Positions 13,929-48,422 of a DNA stretch of 64,000 bases are shown piece by piece. Source of the stretch: Bolinopsis microptera (taxonomy: Eukaryota; Ctenophora; Tentaculata; Lobata; Bolinopsidae); NCBI RefSeq assembly GCF_026151205.1, contig NC_087075.1, positions 3,074,359 through 3,138,358 of the forward strand. Reading direction: 5' to 3'. Made by a program: the position numbers and the translations under genes. The notes under the pieces were generated by a model. That model searched no databases. It saw only the letters and a program-made list of their open reading frames with translations, and was not told the DNA's origin. How positions within the stretch are numbered: the stretch's first letter is position 1; the number at the start of each line of letters is the position of its first letter.

Positions 13929-16058
13929 TTATACTAGTTTTGGGGGATTTTTTTTCCTCATCCTGGTTTTCTTTCTCCCCGATTAAATTCGTCGATCCTT
14001 TTTTCCTTGCTATTTCACTTCTGCATCTTCATATATTATATCTTCCTCTTTTTTCCCTCTTTTTTCTGGGCAACAGCTGCTTCGCCCCTTGGAAGAATTT
14101 GATAAGCTTTGAATTGACAACAGAAGCGAGTAATGCGACATTCTTTTTGCCCCTCTTTCTTAGTGTTTTTTTTCCCCAAATTTAAAGCAGTGTGTTGTCT
14201 TTGACATCTTCTTGGAACACGCCCAAAAGCAGAAAAAAAGGGAGGTCCTTTTGCCCGTTGAAGAATGAACAAGTACGCAGAACACAGCTCCAGGACCAAT
14301 GAAAGGGCAATCAAACCCAAAGGGAACCCATTGAGACTGCAACATCTAAAATGTTTTAGCGTTTTTTTATTTTGAAATTCCATTTCCAGATTTGCTGCTG
14401 GGATAATTTCTAGCTATCTTCCAAAGCGGGACACTTTGAAGAGAAGAATTGTGTATGCGGCACCATAAACCCAAAATACCTCCAAGGTCTTCAACCAGAG
14501 TGGTGTCGTTCTTTTTGTTCCCCCAACAAAAGGTTTTAGGTGTATCCTTATTCAGTGTGAGTGACGTCAAAAAAGGCTGAAACGGAAATATCAGTGGTAG
14601 TAAAAAAACTTCAGTACCACTTGGGGAAAAAAGAAACTTGTCTTTATTTCCGAAGGTCTTTTAGATTAATATCTTCCAAAAAATTTCCCAACACAGACCC
14701 CACCCAAAAAAGGGAGCAGCAGAAAAAGTATTGGGTAATGATCACATGCAAACATCTTTGTTTAATGAAATAGAGGGTTCCCAGTTTGGTCCACAGTTAT
14801 TTTGGTAGGGGCAGAAAGGGAGGTAAAGACAGGTTAGCCAATATCGAGCCAGTAAAAGTTGGGTTTGGTCAGGGGGCCCTGCTTCTTGCAGCTTCTTAAA
14901 CGAAGATGGGCCAAGAGTAAGGAAAGGAAGAAAAGGGTTTTCTGCAGAATAAAGTAGTAAAGATACCCTGGGCTGGATCTGTCACTTCGTTGGACTTAGC
15001 AACTGCAAAGCTTGTTTTGGTAAGGTGCACATGCAGGTTTTGTTTTCATTTAAAATATTGTGAACCCCCTCAGTCAGCCATTCATCCGTTACAATCAGAT
15101 TAAAATGTTTTTTTGATGTTATCCCGAGATAGTCGAATCCTTCTTTTGCTGGAAGCCCAGTGAAAGTTGTAGCCGCCCATTTTTTCAGTCAAAAAAGATG
15201 TTTGAGCTTTGGAGACCCCAAAGTGCTATTTGGAGTTTTTGGTTTCGGCAGCATTTTTTTATAGGTTCCCCTGACCCCCCAAATTTATTTTTTGGTCTCG
15301 TTGGTTTCCGTTTTAGAATGAGGGGAAAGATCGTTGCGGGGACATTTTTTCAGGGGCGTCGGTTAATGGCGGTTTTTTCTTTAGAAGGGTCGGGTGACTG
15401 TTGCAATCAATGGGTTTGTTGTTTTATGTTATTTCTGTATTGGATGGACAAAATTTCCAAAATTTTTATTATCTTGATTTCTCCGTTTCCCTTAAAATTC
15501 AGATTCTCCCCCCCCAATTTTCCTTTGACCTTATCTGAGCAAATTTAGCTCGTTCCCTCAAAAGTAGGATGTTTGGGTTTAATTTCGAAAGAAGATCAAA
15601 ATTTCATGAGTGTCTCGGGGGGACAGTATAATTTTCTGCTCCCGATCAGCAAAACAGTTCAGTTCTTGTTGGATCGTGTACTTTGTCTGCTTTAAGCATT
15701 TTAAATTTTCAGTACTGTTGAAAGCAAGATGACAGGGGGGATCAATTCATGGGTTTTCGTGTTAATCCATTCCTTTACAGTGAGTTTTTTGAAAAGTTTC
15801 TTGTATAAATTCCAGGAATTTAAAACTGGTTTGTTTCCTGCCAGGTTTTGCAAATTTATAGGTGACCCCTTATTCAACCCGGTAGTGTGAGGGAAATGGC
15901 CCACACCTGACATTGGCATTCGGCAAGAAAGCTGTCTTTTCCTATTACAGACCCAGCGCAGGTAAACTTTGGGTTTTTTGGGATATGGTTGGTTTCAGGG
16001 GATCACATTCGGGAGCTAGGCTTTTTCCCTTTGCGGAATCCCCCCCAGGTGCACAGAT
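13929..16058 (-). pseudogene. Adhesion GPCR last exon (GAIN/GPS/7TM), indel-ridden copy
   Basis: Collinear with 54502-56765 along its whole length, from GGTGCACAGATTT (exon start) to TTATACTAG (stop), but with dozens of short indels, mostly in homopolymers, and about 130 bases shorter overall. No frame spans a domain. It is either a decayed exon or unpolished sequence; the indels match the error style of the neighbouring Penelope-like copy, favouring the latter. Confidence 0.75.
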
Positions 16059-19000
16059 TTAAAAATATTGTTTTTTATTGTGTTTCATTTTTATAAGCTT
16101 TGATTTTTACACCCCTAGTTATTAAAAAGCCCATTGTCGGTTAAATAATTTCTTAATAAAGTTCTTTCCCGAATTGTTTTTAAGTGAAAAAAATTTTTAA
16201 AACATACTTTTAAATAATTTGAAAATTAAATCTAGAGAAATACTATTTTAAACGTTAAACCGTGATAGAACTTTTTATTTTTCCCTCACATAACATGGTT
16301 TTTGAGTTTGCCAATATATATCATACATTGTTACGAAAATAGTCCTCTATGGGACTAATATGTTTCCGACAAGGAACATTGGTTTCATCCCGTCAGCTTT
16401 GAACGTTCCCCAGGGCAAGTTACTGTTACTGCTGCAATTTTTAATGCCCAGCTGGACATGTTTCTGAAACGATTGTATTATTACATCTCATAATATTCAT
16501 CATTTTTTATTTATTTTGAATGCGAGTCTAATTAGTTATCAATTTTATGATTTTGACAGCACCTGGGTGTCCAAATTGCAGGACCTAAAGCTCTAAAGTT
16601 ATATTATTCTTTGACCTATTTTTTATTTCGTCATACTGGAGTCTGGACCAGCTATTCCATTGTTCTTTTCTGAGCATATTATATTCTGGTACTGTTAAAA
16701 ACTTGAAGAACTACAAAAGTCTTGGGATTGACGATATCTCTAATGAGCAGTTAAAGTACGGAGCAAGTAGTTTGAGCGAACAGAAAGTAGCAAAGTGGTG
16801 TCTCACGGATCTGTTCTTCAAAGATCCTTGAGCCCGTTTCTGACTCAGGTAATCATCATTCCGTCCATTACAACCAAAGAATTTAATTTTTTTCGAATAA
16901 AACCACCTCGCTATGTTCGGAATAAATAAAGGCAATTACATGACGCTTGTTTCATGTAAAAAAAGAACGATAAGATTGAAACATTCAATTGCTTTCAGAG
17001 GTAGGTTTGTATCGAGAATGACTCGAACAGAAAATTTTCTCAGTCGAAATCTTAAGAGTTTTGGAAACCACTTTTGTTCATGTTTCATGCTACCCTGATC
17101 ATTATTAGCCGAAACTAGTCCGTACCTACATTCGAAAAATTGTGTATCAAATGGTCGGCTTCGAAAAATATTTATGGTTCATAATGATAGGTAACCTGAA
17201 TCTTATCGTAAACAGAAGTTTTTTCCAGGATAACTTAATTTTTTGACTTAGAATATGTTCAGCCTTCAGTCCCGTGCAGCTCAGTGCAGATATATCAGAT
17301 ATATCACATTGACCTCATTAATTCGGTTGTGTGATAATTACAACAATAATTACAACCGCTATTTTAACAGTTCTATCCCACGATTTTGTTTCCTTTCCCA
17401 ATCCTAACCCTTTCAAGCAACCAGCTCTATAACGTAACTATACCATTGCTTGCTTGGGGTCCGAGTCTCAAATACTGTGTAACAATAGTATAAGCTTCCA
17501 AGTTATCTTACCACAGGCAGTTTTGTTAGCGTTTGCTTTCCATCCAGCATCACATGTCTCACAGCTTGTCATAGCATCATTCCGATATGTTCCTTCTCCA
17601 CACGGCTCTGGAATTATAACGTTACAACTGGCAAATCGTAGTGGAAGATAAGAAAATCGTTATTATATAAGTACAGTTCAGATGTTTTACAATAACATTA
17701 TTTAAGCAATGTGTGACAAATTAAATGTCCACATATTCCACAGTTTTTCGAGGAAATTATTGCCACCCAGACTCTTACGCCCTTATAGTTCTTGTCTTTT
17801 CGTACCACACATTTGCCTTCTTGATTCTTAGCCCGTCTTAACCCCTACCATATCTTTACACATCTATATAGATATATTCATCTCAGCTCGGTCCTTGTTA
17901 ACAATTCTTACCACATTTTGTTCTCCCTGAGCTTCGTTCCTGGCCAAGTTCACAAGCTGTACACAAGGCTGCTCCTTTTGAACTGATCGTGTTATCAGGA
18001 CATTCTTTACACGTGTTCATTTCAATGTTCTTGTAGCTTCCAGCTGGACATGGCTCTGAAGAATTAGGAAATCTTTAAGCAGCAATTCGTTTGAACTACC
18101 TTTTTAAGAGGTCATTGTGAGTACCAATATCCTCGTTTTTCATTCTATAGCACAGTTAATTCAAATTTAAAACATAATAATATAATTAAATATAAGCTTT
18201 AAAGTTATCTTACCACAGGCTGTTTTGTCAGAGTTTGGTGTCAATCCAGTGTCACATGTCTCACAGCTTGTCATAGCATCATTCCGATATGTTCCTTCAC
18301 CACACGGCTCTGGAATCATAATTTTATTACAGGCAAATCGTAGTGGAAGATAAGAAAATCGATATTATATAAGTACAGTTCAGATGTTTTACAATAACAT
18401 TATTTAAGCAATGTGTGACAAATTAAATATCCACATATTCCACGGTTTTTCGAGGAAAGTATTGCCACCCAGACTCTTACGCGCTTAATCCTTATGGTTC
18501 TTGTCTTTTCGTACCACACATTTGCCTTCTTGATTCTTAGCCCTATCTGGCGTCTTATCCTTATCCCGTCTTAACCCCTACCATATCTTTACTCCTATAT
18601 AGATATATTCATCTCAGCTCGGTCCTTGTTAACAATTCTTACCACATTTTGTTCTCCCGGAGTTTCGTTCCTGGCCAAGTTCACAAGCTGTACACAAGGC
18701 TGCTCCTTTTGAACTGATCGTGTTATCAGGACATTCGTTACACGTGTTCATTTCAATGTTCTTGTAGCTTCCAGCTGGACATGGCTCTGCAAAATTAAGA
18801 AATCTTTAAGCAGCAATTCGGTTGAACTACCTTATTAAGAAGTTATTGTGATTACCAATATCCTTGGTTTTCATTCTATAGCACAGTTAATTCAAATTTA
18901 AGACATCAAAATAATATTAAATATAAGCTTAAAGTTATCTTACCACAGGCTGTTTTGTCAGAGTTTGGTGTCAATCCAGCGTCACATGTCTCGCAGCTTG

Positions 19001-22000
19001 TCATAGCATCATTCCGATATGTTCCTTCTCCACACGACTCTGGAATTATAACGGTACAACTGTCAAATCTTAGTGGAAGATAAGAAAATTGTTATTATAT
19101 TTAAGTACAATTCAGATGTTTTACAATAACATTATTTAAACACTATGTGACAAATTTAATATCCACATATTCCACAGTTTTTCGAGGAAATTATTGCAAC
19201 CCAGACTCTTACGCCCTTATGGTCCTTGTCTTTTCGTACCATTAATTTGCCTTCTTGATTCTTAGCCCTATCTGGTGCCTTATCCTTATCCAATCTTAAC
19301 CCCTACCATATCTTTACCCATCTATATAGATATAATCATCTCAGCTCGGTCCTTGTTAACAATTCTTACCACATTTTGTTCTCCCTGAGTTTCGTTCCTG
19401 GCCAAGTTCACAAGCTGTACACAAGGCTGCTCCTTCTGAACTGATCGTGTTATCAGGACATTCTTTACACATGTTCATTTCAATGTTCTTGTAGCTTCCA
19501 GCTGGACATGGCTCTGAAGAATTAGGAAATCTTTAAGCAGCAACTCGTTTGAACTACCTAACCTTATTACGACGTTATTGTGATTACCAATATCCTCTGT
19601 TTTCATTCTATAGCACAGTTAATTCAAATTTAAAACATAATAATATTATTAAATATAAGCTTATAATAGTTATCTTACCACAGGCTGTTTTGTCAGAGTT
19701 TGGTGTCAATCCAGCATCACATGTCTCACAGCTTGTCATAGCATCATTCCGATATGTTCCTTCTCCACACGGCTCTGGAATTATAACGTTATAACTGGCA
19801 AATCGTAGTGGAAGATAAGAAAATCGTTATTATATAAGTACAGTTCAGATGTTTTACAATAACATTATTTAAGCAATGTGTGACAAATTAAATATCCACA
19901 TATTCCACAGTTTTTCGAGGAAATTATTGCTACCCAGAGAAGGTCATTTATAAACGCCTCTATAATTTTTTCACATCTAAAGGTGTACTAACAGACTCAC
20001 AGTTTGGATTTAGAAAAGGCCATTCTACCACCCATGCTCTACACAAATCTATAGACTCCGTTACTAAGTCTCTGGCAAGCAATAAACATGTCCTAGGGAT
20101 ATTCATTGACTTGAGCAAAGCCTTCGACACCCTTGATCACGATATTCTTTTATGCAAATTAAATTCCTACGGTATTAGGGGCACAGCACTGACCTTACTA
20201 AAAAGCTATTTGACTAACAGAAAGCAGTATGTTATGTATAACGGTTTACCATCAGAAACAATGGACGTGAAATTTGGAGTACCACAAGGGTCAATTCTAG
20301 GGCCGTTACTCTTCCTATTGTATATGAACGATATAGTAAACTGCTTTTCAGACAGTGAGGTGAAATTTGTACATTATGCTGATGACACTAATATCTTCAT
20401 ATCAGGACCATCTAGAGAAGCAACATACAAAAAAGCCAACTTAGTACTTAAACATGTCTCGATTTACATGAAATGTAATCTACTTCATATCAACATGTCC
20501 AAATGCTGCTACATACATTTTAAACCTGCCTCTGAATATGATGACACCTGTGCACGGACCAGACCATTTGCTATCCTGCTAGATGAATCTAGATCAATAT
20601 TCATCAATGGTAAGGTTATTACTAAAGTCAAGGATACCAAATTCTTAGGTGTGGTTATAGATAGTAAGCTAAACTGGATTGCCCACATGCACTACATCCG
20701 TAAAAAACTGCGATCTATGACTGGTGCAATCTGCAGAATTCGGCACTCGATACCTTCTGAACTATATTTGAAAATATATAATGCTCTTTTTGAATCACAT
20801 CTCAGTTATGGTATAAGTGTTTGGGGTGTTGTCCTCAAAGAACGGTCCAATGATAGCCTTTTCATCACACAGAAGCACCGTATAAGGATCCTTTTTGGCG
20901 ACCTTGACTCATATTTAGATAAACAATCAACATGTGCACGTACTAGACCATACGGTATGCAAAAACTAGACCATAAACACTTTGAAAAGGAGCATACAAA
21001 ACCCATTTTTAATAGATTAAAAATTCTTACGGCTCAAAACTTGTACAAATATCACTGTATTTTAAAATTCTCTAAGATTATCAAGTACCACTGCCCATAC
21101 TCCCTTTATGAGGCTATCAACATTTCAAACCGTGCAACGAGTCTAATGGTTATTCTCCTAAATAAATCAAATACCTTTTTGTTTAGTGCAGCCAAGCTTT
21201 GGAACGCTGTTCATAAAAAAATTTTAACTTCAAGCAATTGCTTAGAAACGTCCATTAGCTTGATAAAACTGAGAACCAAAGCACTATTAATACAAGCACA
21301 GGCAGCTGACTTAAAAGATACTTGGACTCCAAACAATTTTAAATTGCAGTAATAAAATCTAATTGCAGCGGCACACACTTACTATTACTATCATGATTGT
21401 ACTATGGACAGAAAATCTTTCAAATCGATTTTGGGCGCTTTTTAACCATTTGTTGTAATGTTTTTAGATAAGTTAAATATCTAAATTTATAAAATTTTTT
21501 ATCGGAATGAATTTATTGACATTTAATAATTTATTCGGTAGGTTTATCTGGTATTGATATTGATTATATTAATATTGTTATTATTGAACGAAGCTAACTC
21601 TAGACATAGTTAATACTACTTCTTTTAAGAAAGGGACTTGGAGTATAAACGACCAAGTTTGCATAAATTTCTATCCAACCAAGAACTCAAGAGGCAAAGG
21701 TGGGTGCGTAAACTTTTGGTCTGCACTCTCCGATCCTGTATCACCCTGGATTCTTCTCGACGTATCTTTGTAAAAGTTATATACCTTCTAGTCAATCTCT
21801 TGCTACTCCAAGTCCCCTAAGATATCTGATCTAACGTTCGTGCTAGTTATATATATATGAAATATATTTTTGTCTGCTTTAATTGATACTAAATAAAATT
21901 GTTGTTTTCTTGAAATTGTTGTTTTCTTGAGACTCTTACGCCCTTACGGTTCTTGTCTTTTCGTACCACAAATTTGCTTTCTTGATTCTTAGCCCTATCT

Positions 22001-25000
22001 GGTGCCTTATCCTTATCCCGTCTTAACCCCTACCATATCTTTACCCATCTATATAGATATAATCATCTAAGCTCGGTCCTTGTTAACAATTCTTACCACA
22101 TTCTGTTCTCCCTGAGTTTGGTTCCTGGCCAAGTTCACAAGCTGTACACAAGGCTGCTCCTCCTGAACTGATCGTGTTATCAGGACATTCTTTACACGTG
22201 TTCATTTCAATGTTCTTGTAGCTTCCAGCTGGACATGGCTCTGCAAAATTAAGAAATCTTTAAGCAGCAATTCGGTTGAACTACCTTTTTAAGAGGTCAT
22301 TGTGAATACCAATATCCTCGTTTTTCATTCTATAGCACAGTTAATTCAAATTTAAGACATCAAAATAATATTAAATATAAGCTTAAAGTTATCTCACCAC
22401 AGGCTGTTTTGTCAGAGTTTGGTGTCAATCCAGCGTCACATGTCTCGCAGCTTGTCATAGCATCACTCCGATATGTTCCTTCTCCACACGGCTCTGGAAT
22501 TATAACGGTACAACTGTCAAATCTTAGTGGAAGATAAGAAAATTGTTATTATATTTAAGTACAATTCAGATGTTTTACAATAACATTATTTAAACACTAT
22601 GTGACAAATTAAATATCCACATATTCCACAGTTTTTCGACGAAATTATTGCCACCCAGACTCTTACGCCCTAATGGTCCTTGTCTTTTCGTACCATTAAT
22701 TTGCCTTCTTGATTCTTAGTCCTATCTGGCGCCTTATCCTTATCCCGTCTTAACCCCTACCATATCTTTACCCATCTATATAGATATAATCATTTCAGCT
22801 CGGTCCTTGTTAACAATTCTTACCACATTTTGTTCTCCCTGAGTTTCGTTCCTGGCCAAGTTCACAAGTTGTACACAAGGCTGCTCCTTCTGAACTGATC
22901 GTGTTATCAGGACATTCTTTACACATGTTCATTTCAATGTTCTTGTAGCTTCCAGCTGGACATGGCTCTGAAGAATTAGGAAATCTTTAAGCAGTAATTC
23001 GTTTTAACTACCTTATTAAGAAGTTATTTTGAGTACTAATATCCTCGGTTTTCATTCTATAGCACAGTTAATTCAAATTTAAAACATATTATCAATAATA
23101 TTAAATATACCTTACCACAGGCTGTTTTGTCAGAATTTGGTGTTAATCCAGTGTCACATCTCTCACAGCTTGTCATAGCATCATTCCGATATGTTCCTTT
23201 TCCACATGGCTCTGGAATTATAACGTTATAACTGGCAAATCTTAGTGGAAGATAAGAAAATCGTTATTATATAACACACTGCTCCTAAAATCTGGAATAC
23301 ACTTCCCTACTCACTACGCTCCATCTCTCGACTAGATGTTTTCAAGAAGGCTCTCAAGACCCATCTATTTCATCAAGCCTATCCTGTATGTGCGAACAGT
23401 ATTTTTGGTGATTCAGTAGTCATGGACGCAGGACTTTAAGATCAATCTACAATTTATAAATTTGAATTTTTGATTAGAAAAGGGACTACTAAGGTAAATT
23501 TATCTGCACCGCTTTGTTGGCCAGTATCAACTCCATTTTTTGGACTTTGGTCGCTTATACGGCCTAAGCGGTATACAAATAAAGCGTTATTATTATTATT
23601 ATTAAGTACAATTCAGATGTTTTACAATAACATTATTTAAACACTATGTGACAAATTAAATATCCACATATTCCACAGTTTTTCGACGAAATTATTGCAA
23701 CCCAGACTCTTACGCCCTAATGGTCCTTGTCTTTTCGTACCATGAATTTGCCTTCTTGATTCTTAGCCCTATCTGGCGCCTTATCCTTATCCTGTCTTAA
23801 CCCTTACCATATTTTTACCCATCTATAATAACATAAACCCGCCACGCAAAGGGTTTATATAACAGATCATCCCGCGCTAGCGGGATGATCTGATAAACAC
23901 ATACGAGTGCACGCAGCGCACGAGTTTTGTGTTAATATGTAATCCCGAAGCGCCAGCTGAGGGATTACATTTATTTAGCCCTGAGCGTGAAGTGTTTATG
24001 GATTATAATTATCTCCGGCGATTTCGACAAGGGATTTATACTTTAGAAGAGTCGTTGAACAGGAATTTGGTCAAAGTCATTGAAGTCACGAGCAAATCTG
24101 GATGACTGAAGCCAAGAATTAAATTTGTTTAGAGCCCAGTTGTTGACTCTAACTGTACTGTCCGGAACACGATTGGAAAGCAGTTCATCAATCTGAATGT
24201 CAAACCGATCTGTCATAGTGGAGCAATAGCTTGAACGTTAGCAGGAACAAGAGCTGGAAGGAGAGCAAGCAAAACAATACTATTTTTAGGGCACGGACAA
24301 CTACAAGGGTAGCTGGCTAGTCGCCAACTTCTCACGCCACGCGTTGGAGAAATTCCAAGAATTAGCTGCTTTGGCAACGTTCCCAGGAATTTGCGTGTAA
24401 AAGAAGTGGACGGTTACGATCACGTGGTGCGCTTTCGTGTCACGTGGTATAGACTTGGCGTATGCTATTGGTGGCACGTGGTACGCACGTGACGCGCCCA
24501 CGTGATCGCGCGTCTAACTGTTCTACTATTATCGAGTTCTAATCAGCAGTATCATTGATTATTGTAAGTCGGAGAATTGAATGATAAACATCAGTTACGA
24601 CTAAAAAGCGGGCCGGGTTTATACAAATTTCCGGGGCGGGATGATATCACCTTGAGATGTTTATCTAACAGCGGGCCGGGCTGAGTGATAATATGATCCC
24701 GCGTCGAAATCCCGGAGATATTTATATAGATATAATCATCTCAGCTCGGTCCTTGTTTTTTTTTATCAATAAACTTTCAAATTGTTACACAAATACATCA
24801 TTTCATTTCAAAGAAAATATCGCCGAATGACCTTACATGCCTCGACAAGTGACCGAGTGTAAACAAAATAAGGGACACCGAAACACCAGTTGACCAGTAA
24901 ACTGATCCTGATATCTGGATATTATCCGGTTGGAAGAGACAAGGACAAGTGAAACAAGGAAGTTAAGAACTTCCTTGTTTCACTTGTCCTTGTCTCTTCC

Positions 25001-28000
25001 AACCGGATAATATCCAGATATCAGTATTTCAATCATGAGACTAATAAACAGCGAACTACTCCGTTATTTGATAGTAAACTGATCATAGCAATCACATCGG
25101 GCCCTAAATGCACCTATAAGTGAAGCGATGCTGCATCCAAGGCATGCTAGGTTTATTCCATTGAACTAATAAGGTTACAGCCTAAAATATAAATATAATA
25201 AATAACAATGTACCATAAATCATAATTATAAACACACTTTATTTAACATATTTTATTAATTATACTTTTTATCAATTTATATTTAGACAATATAGTTACA
25301 TTAAGGTAAATTGTTTAACTGTCAGAGGATGTTATATGGTCGTTTAGAACTGTCCATAGGTACTTAATTAAATGGGTTTTAAACACGGATGGCCTTGAGA
25401 TTTCCCTTAATTCATAAGGGAGTTTATTCCAAAGAATGTGTGCTCTGTAAAAGTAAGACTTAGATATGCCTGAACATCTGGTCTGGCTTGACGTAAGGTT
25501 TTGTGGAACTTGAGGAGAAATGTCACTAATCATACTGAGATCGTCTAGATGTGATCGCCTTAACCTACTTCCCATGAAACGTCGTAAGTAAGGTGGAAAT
25601 GTCACAACTGACATGTCATAAAAAATATTATGAAAATATAATATATCCTTGTAATCAAACCTTACCGAGAGTGGAAGGATATTTAGTTCCTTACACGCTA
25701 TGAAATAACTTTTTTTGTCCCTAAGGCTCAAGTAAATATCATTAAGGATCCACTTGATACCTCTTTTTTGTATCGATTCAAGTTTCTCCACCGAGGTTTC
25801 TGAATGAGGCCGCCAGACAATTGTGCAGTGTTCGAAATGACTTCTAACCTGAGATAGATAGAAGGCCCGACGTTTTTTAGTGTTCTTGGTGAAGTAACAT
25901 GTTCTTTTTAGAAGGCCTAACCTCTGACTAGCCTTAGAGTATATCATATCACAGTGATGTGACCAATCTAACTTATTATTGATATGTACTCCAAGATCTT
26001 TCTCAATGTCTGTGTATTCGATAGCCGTTTCATTCATTGAGTACACAAAATTAACACTACGATTCATAGAATATGCTCGGGTAATAGAAAGAACGTGACT
26101 TTTTGAAGGGTGAAACACCATCTTATTATGATGAGCCCAATTTTGAAGACTGTTAATATCCCGCTGGAGCAGCCAATGGTCATCCTGGGACGTGATTCTA
26201 CGCCATATTTTTGTATCATCAGCATACATGGTTATATTTGTTTCCGGTGACAAATCCTCTGTAATGTCATTAAGAAAAAGTATAAATAAAGTAGGCCCTA
26301 AAATTGAGCCCTGGGGGACACCTGATCTAACCTGACAGGGAGCAGACATTTTATTTCCAATGACAACCCTTTGGTATCTGTTTTCAAGGTAGCACTTGAA
26401 GAATCTCAGTAGAGATGCATCAATGTTATATTGTTCTTTGAGCTTCAACAGAATTATGTCGTGGTTGACAGAATCAAAAGCTTTTTGGAAATCAAAGTAT
26501 ATTATGTCAGTGCGAACATTGTCATTGAGAGATAGGGCTAAGCTGTCACAGAAATTTACTAGCTGAGTTGTACATGATTTCCTACTCATAAAACCATGTT
26601 GACGTTGATCAATAAGATGTTCACATCGATTGAGCAATTCATCCCGGATTACTTTTTCGTAAACTTTCATAATAATGCCTGTCAGAGAAATTGGCCTATA
26701 GTTGTTAACTTCAATTTTAGAGCCTTTTTTATGAACTGGAACAACGTTTGCCATTTTCCAATCTGCTGGAATACATCCAGTTTTATAAGAGGCTTCAAAA
26801 AGGATAGCAAGAGGCTTAGACAGGCTCACTGAACAGTACTTTAAAATTCTTCCATGGATATTGTCGGCCCCTTGCGCTTTACTTGGATCAATATTTTCAA
26901 GTAAACCTTTGATTTTACAAGTGTCGAAATTGACCTGAAAATCACGGTCGCTGGAAAAGTCAATATCTATATCAAAATCACTACCCTCTGTAAACTGTTC
27001 GTTAAAATATTTATTGAATAACTCACACTGTCCTTGCGGATCGGACCGTAGGCAACCATTGTAGCTGACTGTTTCAGGAATGCGATTAGAGTTTGATTTA
27101 GATTTCACAAAAGACCAGAACTTTTTGTTAATGAGATTTCTGTTATCATCATCTTCAAAGTTTGCGTCCAATTTTGCATCAACGAGATTTTTAAAATCCC
27201 TCCTAGCTTTGGAAAATTTTAAATATTTTTTTGGATTAGAAGACTGTTTCCATTCGTCATGTAGTCGCTCCTTTTTTCTACATAAATCAAAGACATCTGA
27301 GTCAAACCATGGGGGTTGAAATTCATCGGAGACAGATATCTTAGGAATATGTGAATTACAATGAGAAGTGAAAATAGTATTGAAAACTGACCAGGCCTCT
27401 TCGACTGGTTTACCACTAAGTAGATGTTCCCAGTTTTCAGAATTCAGTGCATTATTTAAATTGGTCCAATTGGCCGTTTTGAAGCTATAGATTTATCGTT
27501 TGGTAGACTTTTTCTTTCTAGCGTTAAGTCTTATGTCAAATCTTATCGCATAGTGATCCGACTCACAAATACCATGTTTACTGTCAACAATTAGTTCTGA
27601 TATAATTTCTGGCTTATCCGTCAAAACTACATCTAGAACATTTCCCCTGTAATGTGTAGGGTCTGTTACCAGCTGCTGTAAAGATAAATCATTAAACGTA
27701 TCAATGAATGCTTGTTCAATAGGAACAGAGGAGGAGCCCTCATCCCATCTGACCTGGGGCATATTCAAATCACCAACCAAGGTAATGCTCTGTACTCTTC
27801 TACGCCTACGGATGTTATGTAGGTATTGCTTGACTCTATCATGGTTATCATTGCCAAGTGTGCCAACTCTGTAGAACGTGCTAAATATGGATTTTCTTCC
27901 TAACTTGTCAGAAAGCTCAATACTCAAAATCTCGGCTCTACATTTGACAGGAATGATTTTAGATTCTATGTCAAGACAATGTTTTATGGCAATAAGGACA

Positions 28001-31000
28001 CCACCCCCATTTACTCTGAATTTCCGACTATTCTGGGGGTCCGGGGGATGAGTAAAGCTAGAACGGTCAAGTCTAAATACTTTGTAATCAGCTGTCGAGA
28101 TGATTTCACTATCATGGATATTGTCCTTTAACCATGTTTCATTATAAACTACAATATCTGGTTTATTGATATAAATAAAATGGTTTAGTTCGTGAATTTT
28201 TGTAGAGTGGAGAGTGGAATTTGCATCTCCAAGTTCACCAAAAGGGATCAAGCCCTGAACGTTACAATAAAAAACTGAGCAGTTTCCCGGGGGTCCTGGA
28301 TTTTTCATGCTAGGGTTACAAATAAAGATAAGGAGAAAGTTTATGAGTAGTATCCAAAGGTAAAGTGATGCAGTTATATTTTGTAGATATGGGATTAAGC
28401 CTCGTTTGGGATTGTATTTAACAAACAACGTATGTAGTGTTTTACCTCTAATAGATAAGCTACTCATTGTACGTCTAATTGCAATACCAAAGATAACAAG
28501 GTAGAAATTGCAAAGTAAATTACCAAGACTGTTAATATTTAGTAGGAGTGGAGATTTAATAAGCTGTATCAATTTAGCAGGATTTGTAGGTGGGTTTTCC
28601 AAAATACAGGTGGTAAAACAGAGTAACATAACAAGGACGAAATAATAGTACATAAAAGCAAGACATATGTGATGTGGTTTGAATGAGTTTTGAACGGGTG
28701 TGGAGTGTATTACTGAATTCTTTGTTCTCTTCTTGTTTGAGTGGCTATTATTAAAGTAGCCAATACGTTTTCTATATGTTTCTAACTCAATCATGTGAAA
28801 TCTAACAATAAAACGACCGACTGTGGAGCAATAATTCCCTTTACGGTGTGTAATTTGTACTTGTATTATTGTCCGTGTCCAGTTTGTATGCATGATCAAC
28901 GCCCGTCCGTGATTAGTTATACTATCATAATCAGTTATGTGATATAATCACGTAACTGTAGAATTCATTTTCATCTATTTAAATTGAGAAAATAAGCAAT
29001 ATTCTGAGAAACGGAGATAACTCGTCTTAGATTAACAATTCTTACCACATTTTGTTCTCCCTGAGTTTCGTTCCTGGCCAAGTTCACAAGCTGTACACAA
29101 GGCTGCTCCTTCTGAACTGATCGTGTTATCAGGACATTCTTTACACATGTTCATTTCAATGTTCTTGTAGCTTCCAGCTGGACATGGCTCTGAAGAATTA
29201 GGAAATCTTTAAGCAGCAATTCGTTTGAACTACCTAACCTTATTACGACGTTATTGTGATTACCAATATCCTCTGTTTTCATTCTATAGCACAGTTAATT
29301 CAAATTTAAAACATAATAATATTATTAAATATAAGCTTAAAGTTATCTTACCACAGGCTGTTTTGTCAGAGTTTGGTGTCAATCCAGCATCACATGTCTC
29401 ACAGCTTGTCATAGCATCATTCCGATATGTTCCTTCTCCACACGGCTCTGGAATTATAACGTTATAACTGGCAAATCTTAGTGGAAGATAAGAAAATTGT
29501 TATTATATAAGTACAGTTCAGATGTTTTACAATAACATTATTTAAGCAATGTGTGACAAATTAAATATCCACATATTCCAAAGTTTTTCGAGGAAATTAT
29601 TGCAACCCAGACTCTTACGCCCTAACGGTTCTTGTCTTTTCGTACCATGAATTTGCCTTCTTGATTCTTAGCCCTATCTGGTGCCTTATCCTTATCCAAT
29701 CTTAACCCCTACCATATCTTTACCCATCTATATAGATATAATCACCTCAGCTCGGTCCTTGTTAACAATTCTTACCACATTTTGTTCTCACTGAGTTTTG
29801 TTCCTGACCAAGTTCACAAGCTGTACACAAGGCTGCTCCTTCTGAACTGATCGTGTTATCAGGACATTCTTCACATGTGTTCATGTCAATGTTCTTGTAG
29901 CTTCCAGCTGGACATGTCTCTGAAGAATTAGGAAATCTTTACGCAGCAATTCGTTTGAACTACCTTTTTAAGAGGTTATTGTGAGTACCAATATCCTCGT
30001 TTTTTCATTCTATAGCACAGTTAATTCAAATTTAAAACATAACAATAATATTAAATAAATATAAGCTTTAAAGTTATCTTACCACAGGCTGTTTTGTCAG
30101 AGTTAGGTGTCAATCCAGCATCACATGTCTCACAGCTTGTCATAGCATCATTCCGGTATTTTCCTTCTCCACACGGCTCTGGAATTATAACGTTACAACT
30201 GGCAAATCGTAGTGGAAGATAAGAAAATTGTTATTGTATTTAAGTACAATTCAGATGTTTTACAATAACATTATTTAAACACTATGTGACAAATTAAATA
30301 TCCACATATTCCACAGTTTTCGACGAAATTATTGCAACCCAGACTCTTACGCCCTTATGGTCCTTGTATTTTCGTACCATTAATTTGCCTTCTTGATTCT
30401 TAGTCCTATCTGGCGCCTTATCCTTATCCCGTCTTAACCCTTACCATATCTTTGCCCATCTATTATATATAATAAAAATTATCATCTCAGCTCGGTTCCT
30501 GTTAACAATTCTTACCACACACAGTTCTCCCTGAGTTTCGTTCCTGACCAAGTTCACAAGTTGTACACAAGGCTGCTCCTTCTGAACTGATCGTGTTATC
30601 AGGACATTCTTCACATGTGTTCATGTCGATGTTCTTGTATCTTCCAGCTGGACATGGCTCTGCAGAATTAGGAAATCGTTAAGCAACAATTCTTTGAACT
30701 ACCTTATTTAGAAGTTATTGTGAGGAAGAATTTTTATTCTATCTAGCACAGTTAATTCAAATTTAAAACATAAGAATAGTATTAAATATATGCTTTAAAG
30801 TTATCTTACCACAGGCTGTTTTGTCAGAGTTTGGTGTCAATCCAGCGTCACATGTCTCACAGCTTGTCATAGCATCATTCCGATATGTCCTTTCTCCACA
30901 CGGCTCTGGAATTATAACTTTATAACTGGCAAATTGTAGTTGAAGATAAGAAAATCGTTATTATATAAGTATATTCCACGGTTTTTTGATAGAATTATTA

Positions 31001-33377
31001 CCACCCAGACTCTTATGGTTCTTGTATTTTCGTACCACAAATTTGCCTTCTTGATTCTAAGCCCAATATCAATTCAAATTGTTATCAGTCATTAGGGTTA
31101 ACGCTAAAAATTCGCCTCATCAACAAACTATGAAGCCCATTGCACAATGCACATACTGTTTAAACTCTGCAAAATAAATATTAAACCAAAACAGTTTTGA
31201 GTTTGTTTGGTAAAATACCTTAGTGGTTATGTTCAAGATATTTTGTAAGACATCAGTTTTCAATTGATAATTGTTTCAACCTTTAGTAGCTGAAAATGGC
31301 TTGTCTCCATGATGTCTACTACAAAATATGCAATATTTCTAAATTATGGTTAGCTATTTTTCAATACGCTATCGCCAATATGATTATAACTCTGCCTTCA
31401 GTGTTCAAATAATGTGATTTTATCTCATTCGGAAAACAGTAATTGATAAAATTATGACCACTTCTATTAAGTTATAAATAACAATATGCTAACTATCCTA
31501 TTTCCCATATCCTATATATGTGTTATATATGTTAAATAACAGACTTGAAATTTAGACAGAAAACACGTAATCACGAGCTTACGAGAGAATCAGCAAGGTG
31601 GTTAATTTATAATTATTTGTTACTTTTTTAAACCAATGCTTGTTGTTATTAGTCACCTGGTTGTGGTCTGTAGTTATCAGATGCTGTGCCGGAGGACCAG
31701 AACTTTATCTTTGTCACGTCTCTGTTCCAGTACGTGCTCCAGTCACTGCTACTACACGTTGATTGAGAGATCAGTTTGTTGAGCACCTCCACCTCGTTAC
31801 AGTGTATCACTACTCTGACACCTGCAGTTCTGTTTAGAGTGATACGCCACACATTGTCAGTAGCAGAGGGTGGATTAACAGGGTAGTTAGTGGAGGATAT
31901 GTCGCACCAGGTGAGGTAGTATTTTGGAGTAGAGGTGAACCAGAGGTAGATTGCTCCTGCTTCCTCTCCCTCAGCAGAGTAGAAGAGCACTTCCACCTCA
32001 TTGTTACTCCCCCGCTCACTATTAGTTTTAATTTCTAAAGGTGTCGACTCTAGATCCCACTCTATTTCCACATCTAGATGCACTGATAACCAACCTGTTA
32101 ATTGTATGTTTAACTCATGACTACTGAGCAACGATTTATGTTATCATGAATTTAAGGAGGTGTTCTAGCAAAATTGTAAAGGAATTGTAAGAATGTCGCC
32201 AATAATTTATTCTCAGAATTTAAGGGCCCGACCATACTATGGCTGTTGTCACCATGACTGTTGTCACCATGACTGTTGTCGTAGTGCAGATCAGATGTAA
32301 TGCCAACAGGCACGACAGTCATGACCAGAGGCACGTAGTGTGTTTAGAGGGCGTGCCAATGATACGTGACAACTCGTCGGGCACGTCTTTTCAAATGCCG
32401 TGCCTAGCTAAAAATCCGTGCCTGACTGCAGGCACAGTCTGTTCAGTACTCGTGCCAACTGTCGTGGATAACGTGACGTCACGATTACCTTACAAGGTCA
32501 ATATTTTACGTGATATGGACATTGGCGGTACAGAGTGCAAAGATAGTACAGACAGATCCGTCTGAAAAAAAAATTAATCTACTGACACTGGACACAAGAA
32601 GGTTCCAAAGGATTTATGAAGTTTTTAGGTTAAATTTTTAGGTTTCATTCGGCTGACCAATTTTTCCAAAATTTTCCACGTGTCAGGCCACTTTTGCCAC
32701 TTTTTACCTCCTTTCTTGTTTGTCAAATATCTTCAGCTGTAAACATCGTAAGACTGTAAGAGGTTAGGAATTAATAGAATTAGAAAGTGATTATCATATC
32801 GACGAGAAAAACTTTTATCAGAAAAATGTTTATGTCAGACAATCAGATAATTGGGTAATTACTTATTATATTAGCTAATTACCAAAAATCATAAAAATGT
32901 TTATTGGCTCAAAATGATCGGAATTTTTTGAAACACAGGGAAATGTAGTTTTTAGAAAAAACGAAAATTGTTCACATGGACATTTTTTTGAGACTAAAGA
33001 AAATTTCAATTTTTTTCGCCAAAAGTTTTTTCGAAGCTCTAATGAAAGCCGAACTGCATTCGACCGAATTGGTCCCCACTGGGAATCGAACCCCAGTCGT
33101 TCGTGTGGGAAGCAAATGTATTAAAACCACTAAACCACCCGGCCGACGTGACAGCACTCACTTTTTACTTTTTTATCCCGATTGTCATAGTATGTTTAGA
33201 GGTCGAGCTTAAAATCATGACAAATGGCAAAGTGTGTTAAGAGGCTGTGCCTGTACTCGTAATATTATTGCTTAATGTAGAGCATAAATACTAAATAGAT
33301 GTATAGTTACCTTGGTAGGTCCCCTCAACAGTTCTCCATAACAGCAAGCAAACAACGAACGGGATTATCACCTTCAT
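13929..33377 (-). CDS. Adhesion GPCR with tandem cysteine-rich exon array (minus copy), gene-level
   Basis: Predicted order: signal-peptide exon 33311-33377; domain exon ending at 31657; nine A exons and eight B exons alternating from 30905 to 17512; a sushi remnant; a degraded exon near 16.4 kb; and a GAIN/GPS/7TM exon at 13929-16058. A and B exons resemble GCC2/GCC3 (ephrin-receptor-like) cysteine-rich modules, giving a long extracellular stalk ahead of a 7TM receptor. All A/B exons begin with AG and end with G (phase 1-1). Three LINE insertions and one other element sit in introns. The 3' exon is too damaged to translate in this sequence. The ligand is unknown. The plus-strand copy at 48.4-56.8 kb confirms exon order. 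Confidence 0.75.
16370..16455 (-). pseudogene. Degraded copy of the CPAGQY exon
   Basis: Matches the start of the exon at 54043-54243 (GCCCAGCTGGACATGTTTCT at the acceptor side) but is shortened and shifted. The intron beyond it (about 16480-16725) matches 53810-54030 in reverse. Confidence 0.6.
16716..16970 (+). mobile_element. LINE reverse-transcriptase fragment
   Basis: Plus-strand frame reads NLKNYKSLGIDDISNEQLKY, then with a shift a V-I-I-P-S-I stretch and GNYMTLVS. The pattern K-S-x-G-x-D-x-I-x-x-E-x-L-K and later G-N-Y-x-x-L-V-S is typical of the N-terminal fingers region of non-LTR reverse transcriptases. It is intronic in the receptor gene. The plus gene copy retains only its left edge near 53785-53830. 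Confidence 0.5.
17262..17300 (-). pseudogene. Truncated sushi exon remnant
   Basis: Only the acceptor and about the first 30 bases of the exon at 52029-52223 remain (CTTCAGTCCCGTGCAGCTCA), followed by intron sequence. A similar truncated remnant is at about 53490-53520 in the plus copy. Confidence 0.6.
17512..17607 (-). CDS. Receptor A exon 9 (3'-most)
   Basis: 96 bases, phase 1-1, between TTCCAG-type acceptor and GTAAGAT donor. Encodes PCGEGTYRNDAMTSC... ending AGWKANANKTAC; the WKANAN ending is shared with the exon before the sushi module in the plus copy (WKPNAN). Confidence 0.85.
17912..18055 (-). CDS. Receptor B exon 8
   Basis: 144 bases, phase 1-1; PCPAGSYKNIEMNTCKECPD then NTISSKGAALCTACELG. 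Variant residues are K for E in SSKGA and S for N in QERSSGRT. Confidence 0.85.
18214..18309 (-). CDS. Receptor A exon 8
   Basis: 96 bases; PCGEGTYRNDAMTSCETCD followed by TGLTPNSDKTAC (T where most copies have A). Confidence 0.85.
18643..18786 (-). CDS. Receptor B exon 7
   Basis: 144 bases, open; reads NTCNECPDN where the other copies have NTCKECPDN or NTCEECPDN. Confidence 0.85.
18944..19039 (-). CDS. Receptor A exon 7
   Basis: 96 bases, open; the conserved Pro before the first Cys is Ser (ESCGEGTYR). Confidence 0.85.
19370..19513 (-). CDS. Receptor B exon 6
   Basis: 144 bases, open, consensus residues (SSEGAALCTACELGQERNSG). Confidence 0.85.
19679..19774 (-). CDS. Receptor A exon 6
   Basis: 96 bases, open, consensus residues (CDAGLTPNSDKTAC). 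The next intron towards 22 kb holds a plus-strand LINE. Confidence 0.85.
19939..21930 (+). mobile_element. 5'-truncated LINE (CR1/Jockey-like) in a receptor intron
   Basis: Interrupts intron sequence that reads ACCCAGACTCTTACGCCC in the other repeat units; left junction ACCCAGA/GAAGG, right junction TTTCTTGA/GACTC. It ends in two copies of AATTGTTGTTTTCTTGA, a short tandem 3' tail rather than poly(A). It is antisense to the receptor gene. Confidence 0.85.
19941..21352 (+). CDS. LINE reverse transcriptase, N-terminally truncated
   Basis: The open frame enters from the 5' truncation and includes QFGFRKGHSTTHAL, IDLSKAFDTLDHD, GVPQGSILGPLLF and the catalytic YADDTNIF box, then a long thumb/C-terminal region ending DTWTPNNFKLQ. 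The endonuclease domain is missing, so the copy cannot be autonomous. No stop or frameshift occurs within about 470 codons, implying a young insertion. An ATG at 20111 is internal, not the native start. Confidence 0.9.
22097..22240 (-). CDS. Receptor B exon 5
   Basis: 144 bases, open; variants SSGGAA and QEPNSGRTEC. Confidence 0.85.
22398..22493 (-). CDS. Receptor A exon 5
   Basis: 96 bases, open; YRSDAMTSC (S for N). Its donor is GTGAGAT instead of GTAAGAT. Confidence 0.85.
22824..22967 (-). CDS. Receptor B exon 4
   Basis: 144 bases, open; CTTCELG where most have CTACELG. Confidence 0.85.
23116..23211 (-). CDS. Receptor A exon 4
   Basis: 96 bases, open; the most diverged A exon in charge: PCGKGTYR and SCERCDTG. 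Confidence 0.85.
23277..23607 (+). mobile_element. LINE 3' end with (TTA)n tail
   Basis: Begins in the C-terminal coding end (APKIWNTLPYSLRSISRLDV, then FKKALKTHLF), has a stop near 23437-23439, then an A/T-rich UTR and an ATTATTATT tail. It is flanked by intron sequence that is continuous in sister units (TTATATAA / AAGTACAATTCAG). Confidence 0.8.
23829..24722. mobile_element. Non-autonomous element rich in dyads, with E-box cluster
   Basis: Splits the intron motif TATATAGATATAATC. It contains the perfect dyad CAGATCATCCCGCGC/TAGCGGGATGATCTG around 23862-23892 and inverted segments TCTCCGGCGATTTCGAC (24008) and GTCGAAATCCCGGAGA (about 24702). No transposase frame. Much richer in G/C than the host intron. 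Confidence 0.55.
24908..25072. mobile_element. Palindromic insertion with 12-bp target duplication
   Basis: Flanked by AGTAAACTGATC at 24896-24907 and 25073-25084; the sister UTR at 33.4 kb has a single copy and no insert. Bases 24908-25024 are two perfect 57-bp inverted arms with a 3-base spacer (AAG), followed by a 48-base unique tail. Confidence 0.9.
25315..28899 (-). CDS. LINE ORF2: endonuclease plus reverse transcriptase, one in-frame stop
   Basis: One frame runs from 28899 to 25315, broken only by a TAA at 27493-27495 between the endonuclease (ends NARKKKSTKR) and the RT region (resumes IYSFKTANWTNLNN). The N-terminal 190 residues are hydrophobic and end NPSMKNPGPPGNCSVFYCNV. The endonuclease shows YNETWL, VGDLNMP and a SDHYAI box. 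The RT shows VPVHKKGS, NYRPISLTG, DFQKAFDSVNHD, GVPQGSILGP and YADDTKIW. Length (about 1195 codons) fits a single-ORF CR1-clade element. The start is uncertain because the frame opens without a clear Kozak context. If the stop is real, the copy is dead; if it is an error or read through, it may be active. Confidence 0.9.
29046..29189 (-). CDS. Receptor B exon 3
   Basis: 144 bases, open, consensus residues. The upstream half of the next intron was split by the 4.3 kb LINE. Confidence 0.85.
29352..29447 (-). CDS. Receptor A exon 3
   Basis: 96 bases, open, consensus residues. Confidence 0.85.
29776..29919 (-). CDS. Receptor B exon 2
   Basis: 144 bases, open; begins ETCPAG (T for P), has NIDMNTCEECPDN and QEQNSVRTKC. 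Confidence 0.85.
30083..30178 (-). CDS. Receptor A exon 2
   Basis: 96 bases, open; PCGEGKYRND (K for T). Confidence 0.85.
30516..30659 (-). CDS. Receptor B exon 1
   Basis: 144 bases, open; shares the NIDMNTCEEC form with the adjacent B exon and ends RTVC. Confidence 0.85.
30810..30905 (-). CDS. Receptor A exon 1 (5'-most)
   Basis: 96 bases, open; PCGERTYRND (R for G). The exon before it is the domain exon at 31657. Confidence 0.85.
31657..32131 (-). CDS. Receptor N-terminal domain exon (minus copy)
   Basis: Open frame of about 158 codons from the segment SSHELNIQLTGW to ...SGTASDNYRPQPG, where a GTGACT donor splits a Gly codon in phase 1, matching the A exons that follow. The composition (IEW...E-V-x-V-x-x-Y, VWRITLN, VVIHCNEVEVLN, STCSSSDWSTYW, VTKIKFWSSGTASDNYRP) looks like an all-beta extracellular domain; I do not recognise a named family with certainty. 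The plus copy at 49586-50060 is about 70% identical in protein. The acceptor is unclear: candidate AGs near 32120 would not join exon 1 in phase. Confidence 0.75.
32238..32282 (+). repeat. 15-bp tandem repeat in receptor intron 1 (3 copies)
   Basis: Unit TGTTGTCACCATGAC. The inverted homologue at 49414-49472 has four copies, so the two arms differ by one unit. Confidence 0.8.
33071..33147 (-). repeat. tRNA-Gly-like sequence or tRNA-derived SINE (minus copy)
   Basis: Has an A box (TGGTTTAGTGG) and a B box (GGTTCGATTCC) at tRNA spacing and an anticodon-loop-like TTCCCAC (would be CCC, Gly). The acceptor stem does not pair well and the T-arm has an extra G, so it is more likely a pseudo-tRNA or SINE head than a working gene. 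Confidence 0.55.
33311..33377 (-). CDS. Receptor exon 1: signal peptide (minus copy)
   Basis: ATG at 33377; encodes MKVIIPFVVCLLLWRTVEG plus TYQ, a typical signal peptide (K, then a hydrophobic core), ending in a phase-1 donor GTAACTATAC. Four codons longer than the plus copy because a donor shift adds GTYQ. Upstream, 21 bases from the ATG, a LINE 3' UTR fragment is inserted. Confidence 0.8.
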
Positions 33378-33699: not shown

Positions 33700-33972
33700 C
33701 AAAACACATACAGCTTTGGTTCAGACAAATTATATTGTATTGCTATCTGGAAAACACACAAATGCAAATGAAACCTCGAAAACATTAACCCTCGTAACTG
33801 GAATTGCACAGTTTTTTATCGTAGGATTATGTTGAAATAGATAACACGCGCCAAATATTGTTGAAAATATGAATTTGGAAACGATCTACTGTTATTAGTA
33901 GATTTGCCTTCGCTGAAATGTGTGACGTACACGATATGATAAAGCAAACATTAATAGTCAACATGTAAAGTT

Positions 33973-34011
33973 GGATTAACACCAAACTCTTACAAAACAG
34001 CCTGTGGTAAG
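33973..34011 (+). pseudogene. A-exon remnant, 3' half
   Basis: GGATTAACACCAAACTCTTA then CAAAACAGCCTGTG/GTAAGAT: the end of an A exon with its donor and following intron, on the strand opposite to the neighbouring gene. Confidence 0.7.
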
Positions 34012-35523: not shown

Positions 35524-35580
35524 GCTTTGTGGAGAAGGAACATATCGGAATGATGCTATGACAAGCTGTGAGGCATGTGA
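35524..35580 (+). pseudogene. A-exon remnant, 5' part
   Basis: TGTGGAGAAGGAACATATCG followed by GAATGATGCTATGACAAGC and GAGGCATGTGA, then a jump into intron sequence. The acceptor-side PCG codons are damaged and the 3' third is deleted. Confidence 0.7.
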
Positions 35581-35640
35581 AGTTGATGATAACTTTAAAG
35601 CTTATATTTGATATTATTGTTTTGTTTTAAATTTGAATTA

Positions 35641-36375
35641 ACTGTGCTATAGAATGAAAACCACTTTATGCCACTGGGATCATGCTTAAAAATGTAAAAG
35701 CATGCCAATAGTTGCGAGCCGCGAGGCTAGACTCGAAGGATAGGTGAACGAACAGGTTTTGTTTGTTAGACTCGTTTATGTGAACCTAGGCTGTTGAATA
35801 ATACGAGGGTGAGATGCCGGTAGCAGACGAAAAATTTGGACCCCATTTGTTTAACAATGGCGCCCACGTCCGAGTAAAGATCGCACCTAGATCGTGCTTC
35901 AGGGTGCTCCAGGGTACTTCACAGTGGTCCGGGTTCCTCTAGGTGTTCCAGGGTACTTCACGGTGCCCAGCATAACTAAGTAGAATAGTAACGTTGGTGT
36001 CCTTGGCCCTTGCTCGGGTGGTATATAACTCATCTTACTTGTAACCTGTTATTTGTAACATGTTTACTGAATCCTTAGGATGGTAAGTTTAGGCGTGTGA
36101 ACTGTTTTGTGTGATTAATGTGTGAAGTGAAGGATAATGATTTGTTAGTGGATAAGGTACCATAACTGTGGATAATGATTTAGCCTTCACGTAATGAGAG
36201 AGAGAGAGAGAGAGATAGAGGCCGCCTTAGACTAGTGCAAGTGTTTACTGTCTAAATCAATGAGGCAGATTGAACCCAGGAAGCTTTATTCCACTATGAC
36301 GTTAACAATGTTCATTGTTCATGCATAGTGCATAGTGCATAGTGCATACGGAGTATTTTAAAGTCGCCGTTTTTT
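35641..36375 (+). repeat. Repeat X, long copy (probable left end of a Mutator-like element)
   Basis: An inverted copy lies at 47101-47790. Contains a (GA)n run near 36199 and three GCATAGTGCAT units near 36323. Homology between the two copies ends at GTTTTTTTGTG, exactly where the transposase frame begins at left. Confidence 0.75.
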
Positions 36376-48367: not shown

Positions 48368-48422
48368 ATGAAGGTGATAATCCCGTTCGTTGTTTGCTTG
48401 CTGTTATGGAGAACTGCTGAGG
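48368..48422 (+). CDS. Receptor exon 1: signal peptide (plus copy)
   Basis: ATG follows ATCATGTAACT; encodes MKVIIPFVVCLLLWRTAEG, ending at a phase-1 donor GTAACTATAC. The sequence from 48110 to the ATG is shared with 33700-33960 of the minus copy and probably holds the promoter; no TATA element is obvious. Confidence 0.8.

Follow-up and report, generated by a model that had tools for sequence, protein, structure and literature searches.

Architecture of the exon array and its two genes

The window analysed here is a stretch of 64,000 nucleotides from the ctenophore Bolinopsis microptera (NC_087075.1, positions 3,074,359 to 3,138,358; C4:3074359-3138358 in our contig numbering), in which two genes lie head to head with their candidate first exons about 15 kb apart. 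The gene on the minus strand contains an array of 17 short exons at 17512-30905, which an nhmmer scan resolves into nine exons of 96 nt (A) and eight exons of 144 nt (B) in strict A-B alternation. In the direction of transcription, the A exons occupy 30810-30905, 30083-30178, 29352-29447, 23116-23211, 22398-22493, 19679-19774, 18944-19039, 18214-18309 and 17512-17607, and the B exons lie between them at 30516-30659, 29776-29919, 29046-29189, 22824-22967, 22097-22240, 19370-19513, 18643-18786 and 17912-18055. All 17 are preceded by AG and followed by GT, with the donor GTAAG in 16 cases and GTGAG at the fifth A exon; all begin with AG, end with G and are in phase 1-1. Together they encode 672 amino acids (aa). 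The phase 1-to-1 frame of the exons contains no stop in 655 whole codons, the other two frames have 26 stops in 672 and 75 in 655 codons, and the 14 ordinary array introns show 282 in 3194 codons over three frames. The nominal chance value of 1e-27 for this openness overstates the evidence because the exons are copies of one another, but the alternation and the openness are real despite the inflated value.

The introns of different units are near-copies of two length classes, measuring 148-165 nt from A to B (n = 8) and 304-337 nt from B to A (n = 6 ordinary introns), and the unit period is 702-735 nt. The remaining two B-to-A introns (5834 and 2322 nt) contain insertions. One of them carries an insertion of about 2.0 kb at 19939-21929, with a plus-strand frame for a reverse transcriptase that spans 19892-21352 from stop to stop. 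The insertions at 23828-29031 in the other include a minus-strand element of non-LTR type with an endonuclease frame at 27493-28947 and a reverse-transcriptase frame at 25315-27492; 24720-24757 within them matches the unit sequence, and an additional non-unit piece lies at 23273-23588. The preliminary description of this DNA, made from its letters, had reported nine 96-base and eight 144-base alternating exons, all open, starting with AG and ending in G, near-identical introns, a unit of about 700-750 bases, frame-neutral skipping or inclusion of any exon that could add from a few to about 670 residues, and far fewer units in the plus-strand copy. Our measurements agree with it on the anatomy, on the frame neutrality and the full length of the array, and on the lower unit number of the plus copy. 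It did not mention the retroelements in the two long introns, the damage in the 3' receptor part or the occurrence of the array elsewhere in the genome.

The encoded repeat has a period of 16 residues of the form C-x12-C-x2, of which A contains two and B three, so that each exon length is a multiple of 48 nt. A Pfam query put together by typing and joining the translations of four exons matched Ephrin_rec_like (PF07699) at 3.3e-14, with 52.8 bits exceeding the curated cut-off of 23.1, and NCD3G (PF07562) at 9.3e-13. The array exons differ from each other by few residues. The ninth A exon is of a terminal "GW" type (GWKANANKTAC), which is the last exon in 15 of the 17 stretches that we surveyed; these were picked among the array loci, several of them for many units or a twin, and at least two are partial. 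Truncated remnants of A lie at 33961-34011 and 35524-35585.

Upstream of the array, the minus gene has a candidate signal-peptide exon at 33311-33377 (MKVIIPFVVCLLLWRTVEG.., ending in phase 1), picked by scripted hydrophobicity rather than by a signal-peptide predictor, and an N-terminal domain exon of about 150 aa at 31654-32104 with approximate borders, homologous to the domain of the plus gene. Downstream, sequence comparison places a noisy HRM-GAIN-GPS-seven-transmembrane (7TM) stretch at 13932-16058, homologous to 54501-56765 of the plus gene.

The plus gene has fewer array units. Its candidate signal-peptide exon at 48368-48422 (MKVIIPFVVCLLLWRTAEG, again from scripted hydrophobicity) is conserved with that of the minus gene and is followed by the N-terminal domain exon at 49613-50062 (borders approximate). 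The stalk exons at 50563-53291 comprise A at 50563, A at 50967, B at 51221 (145 nt), A of the GW type at 51706, a Sushi-like exon at 52013-52225, A at 52689, B at 52946 (143 nt) and a diverged A-like exon at 53200. Next comes a single B-like cysteine exon at 54042-54242, shared with sister receptors on C5 and C8. The plus copy counts five A-type, two B and one diverged B-like exon. Both B exons are one base off in length, which may be sequencing error or real. The Sushi label was given by eye only, and Pfam returned no match up to E 10 for three copies of this exon.

The receptor exon of the plus gene (54501-56765, acceptor set by eye) is a 777-codon open frame with Pfam matches to GPS (1.1e-08) and 7tm_2 (1.8e-18), while HRM (6.4e-05) falls under its curated cut-off. 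Carrying both the GPS motif and a class-B-type 7TM, the plus gene qualifies as an adhesion G-protein-coupled receptor (GPCR). The 3' stretch of the minus gene is 84% identical in DNA to this exon, although full of insertions and deletions (indels), and the minus gene is likely a receptor of the same adhesion-GPCR type.

The plus-gene copy of the N-terminal domain is predicted as a beta sandwich (model pLDDT 92.4), possibly of the galectin or laminin-G-like kind, whose top Foldseek match is a weak one to a sponge galectin (E 4.6e-05, TM 0.52/0.55, rmsd 5.5). A PDB sequence search with the domain gave no match, and Pfam gave no convincing family among the 29 members scanned: the first member matched none, and four families matched one member each, with a best E of 0.016. 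Separately, with 150 of 452 candidates scored, the exon has at least 151 matches in the genome; many of these show 45-55% identity and lie away from the listed array clusters. Judged by these matches, the unannotated domain forms a large family.

Substitution pattern in the receptor stretch of the minus gene

Many stops and frameshifts interrupt the HRM-GAIN-7TM stretch of the minus gene, and the noise runs from near 16430 to at least 13650. We first considered that the minus copy is a decaying pseudogene which has lost its receptor part, the array being a neutral remnant. Besides the damage throughout the 3' stretch, the retroelements within the array, the one-base shifts of both plus-copy B exons and the truncated A remnants fit such decay. 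However, the substitution spectrum of the 3' stretch moved this explanation to second place. In 2167 columns aligned with the plus copy there are 400 substitutions and 167 deleted against 34 inserted columns, and 345 of the 400 substitutions put into the minus copy a base that stands next to the site in the plus copy, where 197 are expected. Two other segments do not show this excess, with 39 of 95 substitutions in an array segment (37 expected) and 37 of 76 in the N-domain exon (38 expected). Furthermore, the onset is abrupt: in steps of 300 columns, substitutions stand at 4.8% over 16727-16430 and then at 11-22%, with the neighbour-copy bias, in all ten steps that cover 16429-13648. Because of this spectrum and the abrupt onset, the damage is probably technical, resembling the errors of unpolished long reads and not the pattern of neutral decay. 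All 17 array exons are also open and of full length, and we regard the pseudogene explanation as unlikely.

Three comparisons fit the artefact less well. Over 17667-16976 the two copies differ by 14.7% without bias (47 neighbour copies, 39.3 expected), in an alignment that may pair different A exons. In the 5' flank, substitutions reach 3.5% yet there are 161 gap columns, and the neighbouring minus gene on C4 shows a weaker bias (182 of 259 substitutions, 119.7 expected), its 91 inserted columns outnumbering the 39 deleted ones. Two more copies of the receptor exon lie at C4:3051949-3054259 and C5:19193130-19195445, each half being listed with 14-18 stops even in its best frame; the C4 copy has a weaker neighbour-copy bias and more insertions than deletions. 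As a caution, a receptor exon in the assembly may resemble a pseudogene for technical reasons.

Distribution of the array in the genome

The genome searched comprises 264.65 Mb in 232 contigs, with thirteen sequences of 15-26 Mb amounting to about 258 Mb. The unit sequence matches at least 142 places (40 of 90 candidates scored), which group into at least 34 clusters on 12 of the 13 chromosome-size sequences and contig C45. Their DNA identity is mostly 80-95%, introns and flanks included. An N-domain exon lies within 8 kb of 31 of the 34 listed clusters. A 7TM within 6 kb was listed only for the two clusters of the window; in a third gene on C4 the distance is about 8 kb. A shared downstream flank, different from that of the minus gene and without a listed 7TM there, was matched within 6 kb of 26 of the 34 clusters, in a count that ignores strand and in which two C2 clusters share one match.

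In seven aligned loci the terminal A exon is followed by a Sushi-like exon, then by a decayed-looking exon and, further on, by a short stop-bearing exon. The decayed-looking exon was read by eye and has two weak tblastn hits; the candidate short terminal exon (DPYS...) was translated at one locus and is present in the seven-locus alignment. On this layout, the dispersed clusters without a 7TM look like soluble relatives consisting of the N-domain, an A/B stalk, a Sushi-like exon and a short tail. At one of the array loci, L014 (C5:20.9 Mb), a second tandem array with a period of about 555 bases was seen at about 5081-7273, containing a short stop-bearing exon (DPYS.GTN.STDKTKCEPF...), and sequence like it lies downstream at other dispersed loci.

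Two twin pairs of clusters are 99% identical and differ in their 5' borders, which agrees more with segmental duplication than with a fixed-end transposon. A transposon of that kind carrying the array seems unlikely on the borders of these two pairs, which together with coverage profiles were the material examined.

Growth and conservation of the arrays

To compare units, 46 uninterrupted A-B-A units were taken from 14 of the 17 stretches, 39 of them in loci with more than one unit. The nearest relative lies in the same locus for 30 of these 39, compared with a mean of 5.1 and a maximum of 13 in 2000 label shuffles. Mean within-array identity is 98.6% on C3, 96.5% on C6, 95.9% on C10, 94.0% on C8 and 92.7% in the window, and 91.8% between loci. 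Since the window array ranks fifth by this measure among the six loci with four or more units, it does not appear to be among the youngest. Among the nine exceptions to the own-locus rule is a C9 unit with its nearest relatives in the window array (94.6% identity, compared with 90.4% for its own locus), which hints at exchange between chromosomes.

Unit number varies between paralogous loci in this one assembly. Directly upstream on C4 lies a similar head-to-head pair, whose minus gene has the order A B B B B B B A B A B A; read from this order, B alone was amplified there. At the other extreme are receptor paralogs on C5 and C8 that are 95-98% identical in their GAIN and 7TM halves (with one TAG listed for the C8 copy). 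These sisters contain the N-domain, the Sushi-like exon, the B-like exon and the receptor exon, and no A/B exon beyond a ten-residue scrap was found within the 8.6 and 6.1 kb fetched. Repeated local gain and loss of units, most simply by unequal exchange, would account for both the clustering by locus and the copy-number differences, and the different ectodomain lengths of the paralogs would therefore stem from locus-specific amplification.

Across the 17 stretches, 148 of 151 A/B exons are intact (A 85/85, B 63/66), counting matches over at least 60% of the exon length at E 1e-6 and leaving out short remnants such as those at 33961-34011 and 35524-35585. The three exceptions are in C4 plus-strand copies, and in the upstream C4 pair two of the intact B exons deviate in length, to 147 and 120 nt, while staying in frame. 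The cysteines are kept in all 85 A exons at three positions and in 84 at the fourth, and in 60 or 61 of 61 B exons. Indel events per kb per pair number 0 in the 85 A exons and 0.93 in the 63 B exons; the corresponding values are 14.7 for the A-B introns (n = 55) and 21.4 for the B-A introns (n = 53). The comparison of dN/dS between units, suggested together with the initial reading, gave 0.43 within the window array (codon bootstrap 0.23-0.82).

Interpretation of the array

Taken together, these results lead us to read the array as a tandemly amplified exon pair (A + B, about 730 bases with introns) that codes for the cysteine-rich stalk of an adhesion-type GPCR, to which we assign a probability of roughly 0.7. 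Since the A and B lengths are multiples of 48 nt and the introns are in phase 1, unit gain or loss is neutral for the frame, and unequal crossing-over or gene conversion would add or remove whole stalk units. Probably all array exons are spliced in by default, which would give the minus gene a stalk of up to 672 residues; other paralogs would have other stalk lengths, down to no A/B exon. The length of the array may in turn set how far the N-terminal domain reaches above the membrane.

Several results weigh against this interpretation. The receptor stretch of the minus gene is unreadable in the assembly, so that an intact receptor depends on taking its noise as artefact, and for most clusters of the array no 7TM was listed in the vicinity. 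Within-array identity on C9 (91.1%) and C12 (86.9%, one pair) does not exceed the 91.8% found between loci. The dN/dS rises to 0.66 between loci (0.43-1.00) and 0.81 within non-C4 loci; values of 1.46 within C10 and 4.8 within C3 come from few differences, partly in terminal exons, and nothing is drawn from either. In addition, A exons and A-B introns diverge equally by substitution (7.3% and 7.1%). By the indel, cysteine and dN/dS figures, the frame and the cysteines are guarded, and the constraint on the amino acids is moderate at best.

The proposal of ongoing unit amplification survives in part. Repeated amplification is borne out by the 30 of 39 own-locus relatives, the 98.6% identity on C3 and the B-only expansion on C4; C9 and C12 speak against a simple picture. 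The window array is not among the youngest. Ectodomain length does differ through amplification between paralogs, as proposed, down to no A/B exon in the fetched stretches. The array was also put forward as the best candidate in the window for an undescribed variable-receptor system; an exon-pair repeat in a secreted or surface protein is already known from LPA KIV-2, and most of the clusters found lie near no listed 7TM.

A wider reading can be drawn from the genome-wide pattern, namely that at least 34 homogenising clusters, mostly soluble-looking genes with few membrane receptors, exchange stalk units between chromosomes. Receptors and their soluble counterparts would in that case have a changing stalk in common, as could be expected of a system for recognition or for telling self from non-self. 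We consider this reading speculative and improbable.

The array anatomy, the frame preservation, the clustering of most units by locus and the copy-number differences between loci are direct observations; a diversity of the stalk based on splicing is at present unsupported. According to that alternative, each cell would use a selection of the A and B exons, and many stalk lengths or sequences would result. All 17 exons are in phase 1-1, making every skip frame-neutral, and the EGF-repeat exons of the adhesion GPCR CD97 are described as alternatively spliced (PMC9101421). However, the exons are near-identical, so that a choice among them would alter little except length, the donors are uniform (16/17 GTAAG), and no frame incompatibility imposes mutually exclusive use; a variable receptor of this kind therefore seems doubtful. 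Least probable is a dispersed, mobile-like cassette in which array and flanks multiply in the genome with the C4 receptors as accidental hosts, for although the at least 34 clusters on 12 chromosome-size sequences and C45 at mostly 80-95% identity with introns and flanks, the two twin pairs at 99% and the array-free sister receptors would suit it, the twins differ in their 5' border, no fixed termini or transposase were seen in those pairs and the coverage profiles examined, the exons are kept in frame, and the N-domain exon within 8 kb of 31 of 34 clusters fits gene duplication.

If the minus gene is transcribed as drawn, it would provide an adhesion-type receptor with a stalk length set by a changing exon-pair repeat, and together with the near-identical paralogs without the repeat it would offer a natural series in which to study the effect of stalk length in this class of receptors. 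The genome-wide spread, mostly away from a recognised membrane part, points to a large, fast-changing family of surface or secreted proteins in a probably early animal lineage.

Other features of the window

Three transposon-like frames lie between the head-to-head genes at 36343-37668, 39011-39799 and 40798-41385. One has a MULE transposase domain (Pfam 5e-11); the other two, without a Pfam match at 0.01, are Penelope-like and mariner-like by eye only. At the left edge of the window, 1-1155 on the plus strand holds an HRM-GAIN fragment that is 98.6% identical to 54375-55412 over 1038 bases and then departs. By its sequence, this fragment is the truncated end of the plus gene of the upstream pair. 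The segment 60001-62000 is strongly skewed (G+C 56%, GC skew 0.66) and contains a proline/serine-rich minus-strand frame at 60383-61231; it is probably made of low-complexity repeats.

Comparison with known systems

A paper on this exon array was not found in the open-access literature searched. The closest precedent is human LPA KIV-2, which the cited reports describe, in the parts considered here, as near-identical units of two short exons with similarity reaching into the introns, L1 insertions in introns and 1-40 units per allele (PMC7613587; PMC11462820). It shares with the comb-jelly array a tandem two-exon unit with similar introns, frame neutrality and elements inserted in the introns. 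In contrast, LPA KIV-2 codes for a kringle fold in a plasma protein, its unit is about 5.5 kb and its allelic variation is known, whereas the comb-jelly array is known from one assembly, in which it is present at about 34 places.

CD97 (ADGRE5), whose isoforms vary by splicing in the number of EGF-repeat exons (PMC9101421, as far as its relevant section goes), is likewise an adhesion GPCR with a repeat stalk, but the window gene has 17 near-identical exons of another repeat type. Dscam is described as carrying tandem exon duplicates in one surface-protein gene that are used in a mutually exclusive way (part of PMC1397879). Tandem duplication is common to both; the window array consists of near-copies of two alternating kinds, all frame-compatible, although frame compatibility does not by itself rule out mutually exclusive choice of the Dscam type. 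As for the repeat, Ephrin_rec_like was reported for GPCRs of the glutamate family in choanoflagellates and further close relatives of animals and not for those of animals, in a section of that work that does not address adhesion GPCRs (PMC12716839). The window version of the Ephrin_rec_like/NCD3G repeats is split into exons of 32 and 48 residues on a 16-residue period.

An exon pair amplified together with its introns is thus known already from LPA KIV-2, as is an adhesion GPCR with variable repeat exons from CD97, there by splicing. What is unusual in the comb jelly is that near-identical A and B exons alternate strictly in an adhesion-type receptor, that near-identical paralogs are free of the array and that the array is spread over the genome.

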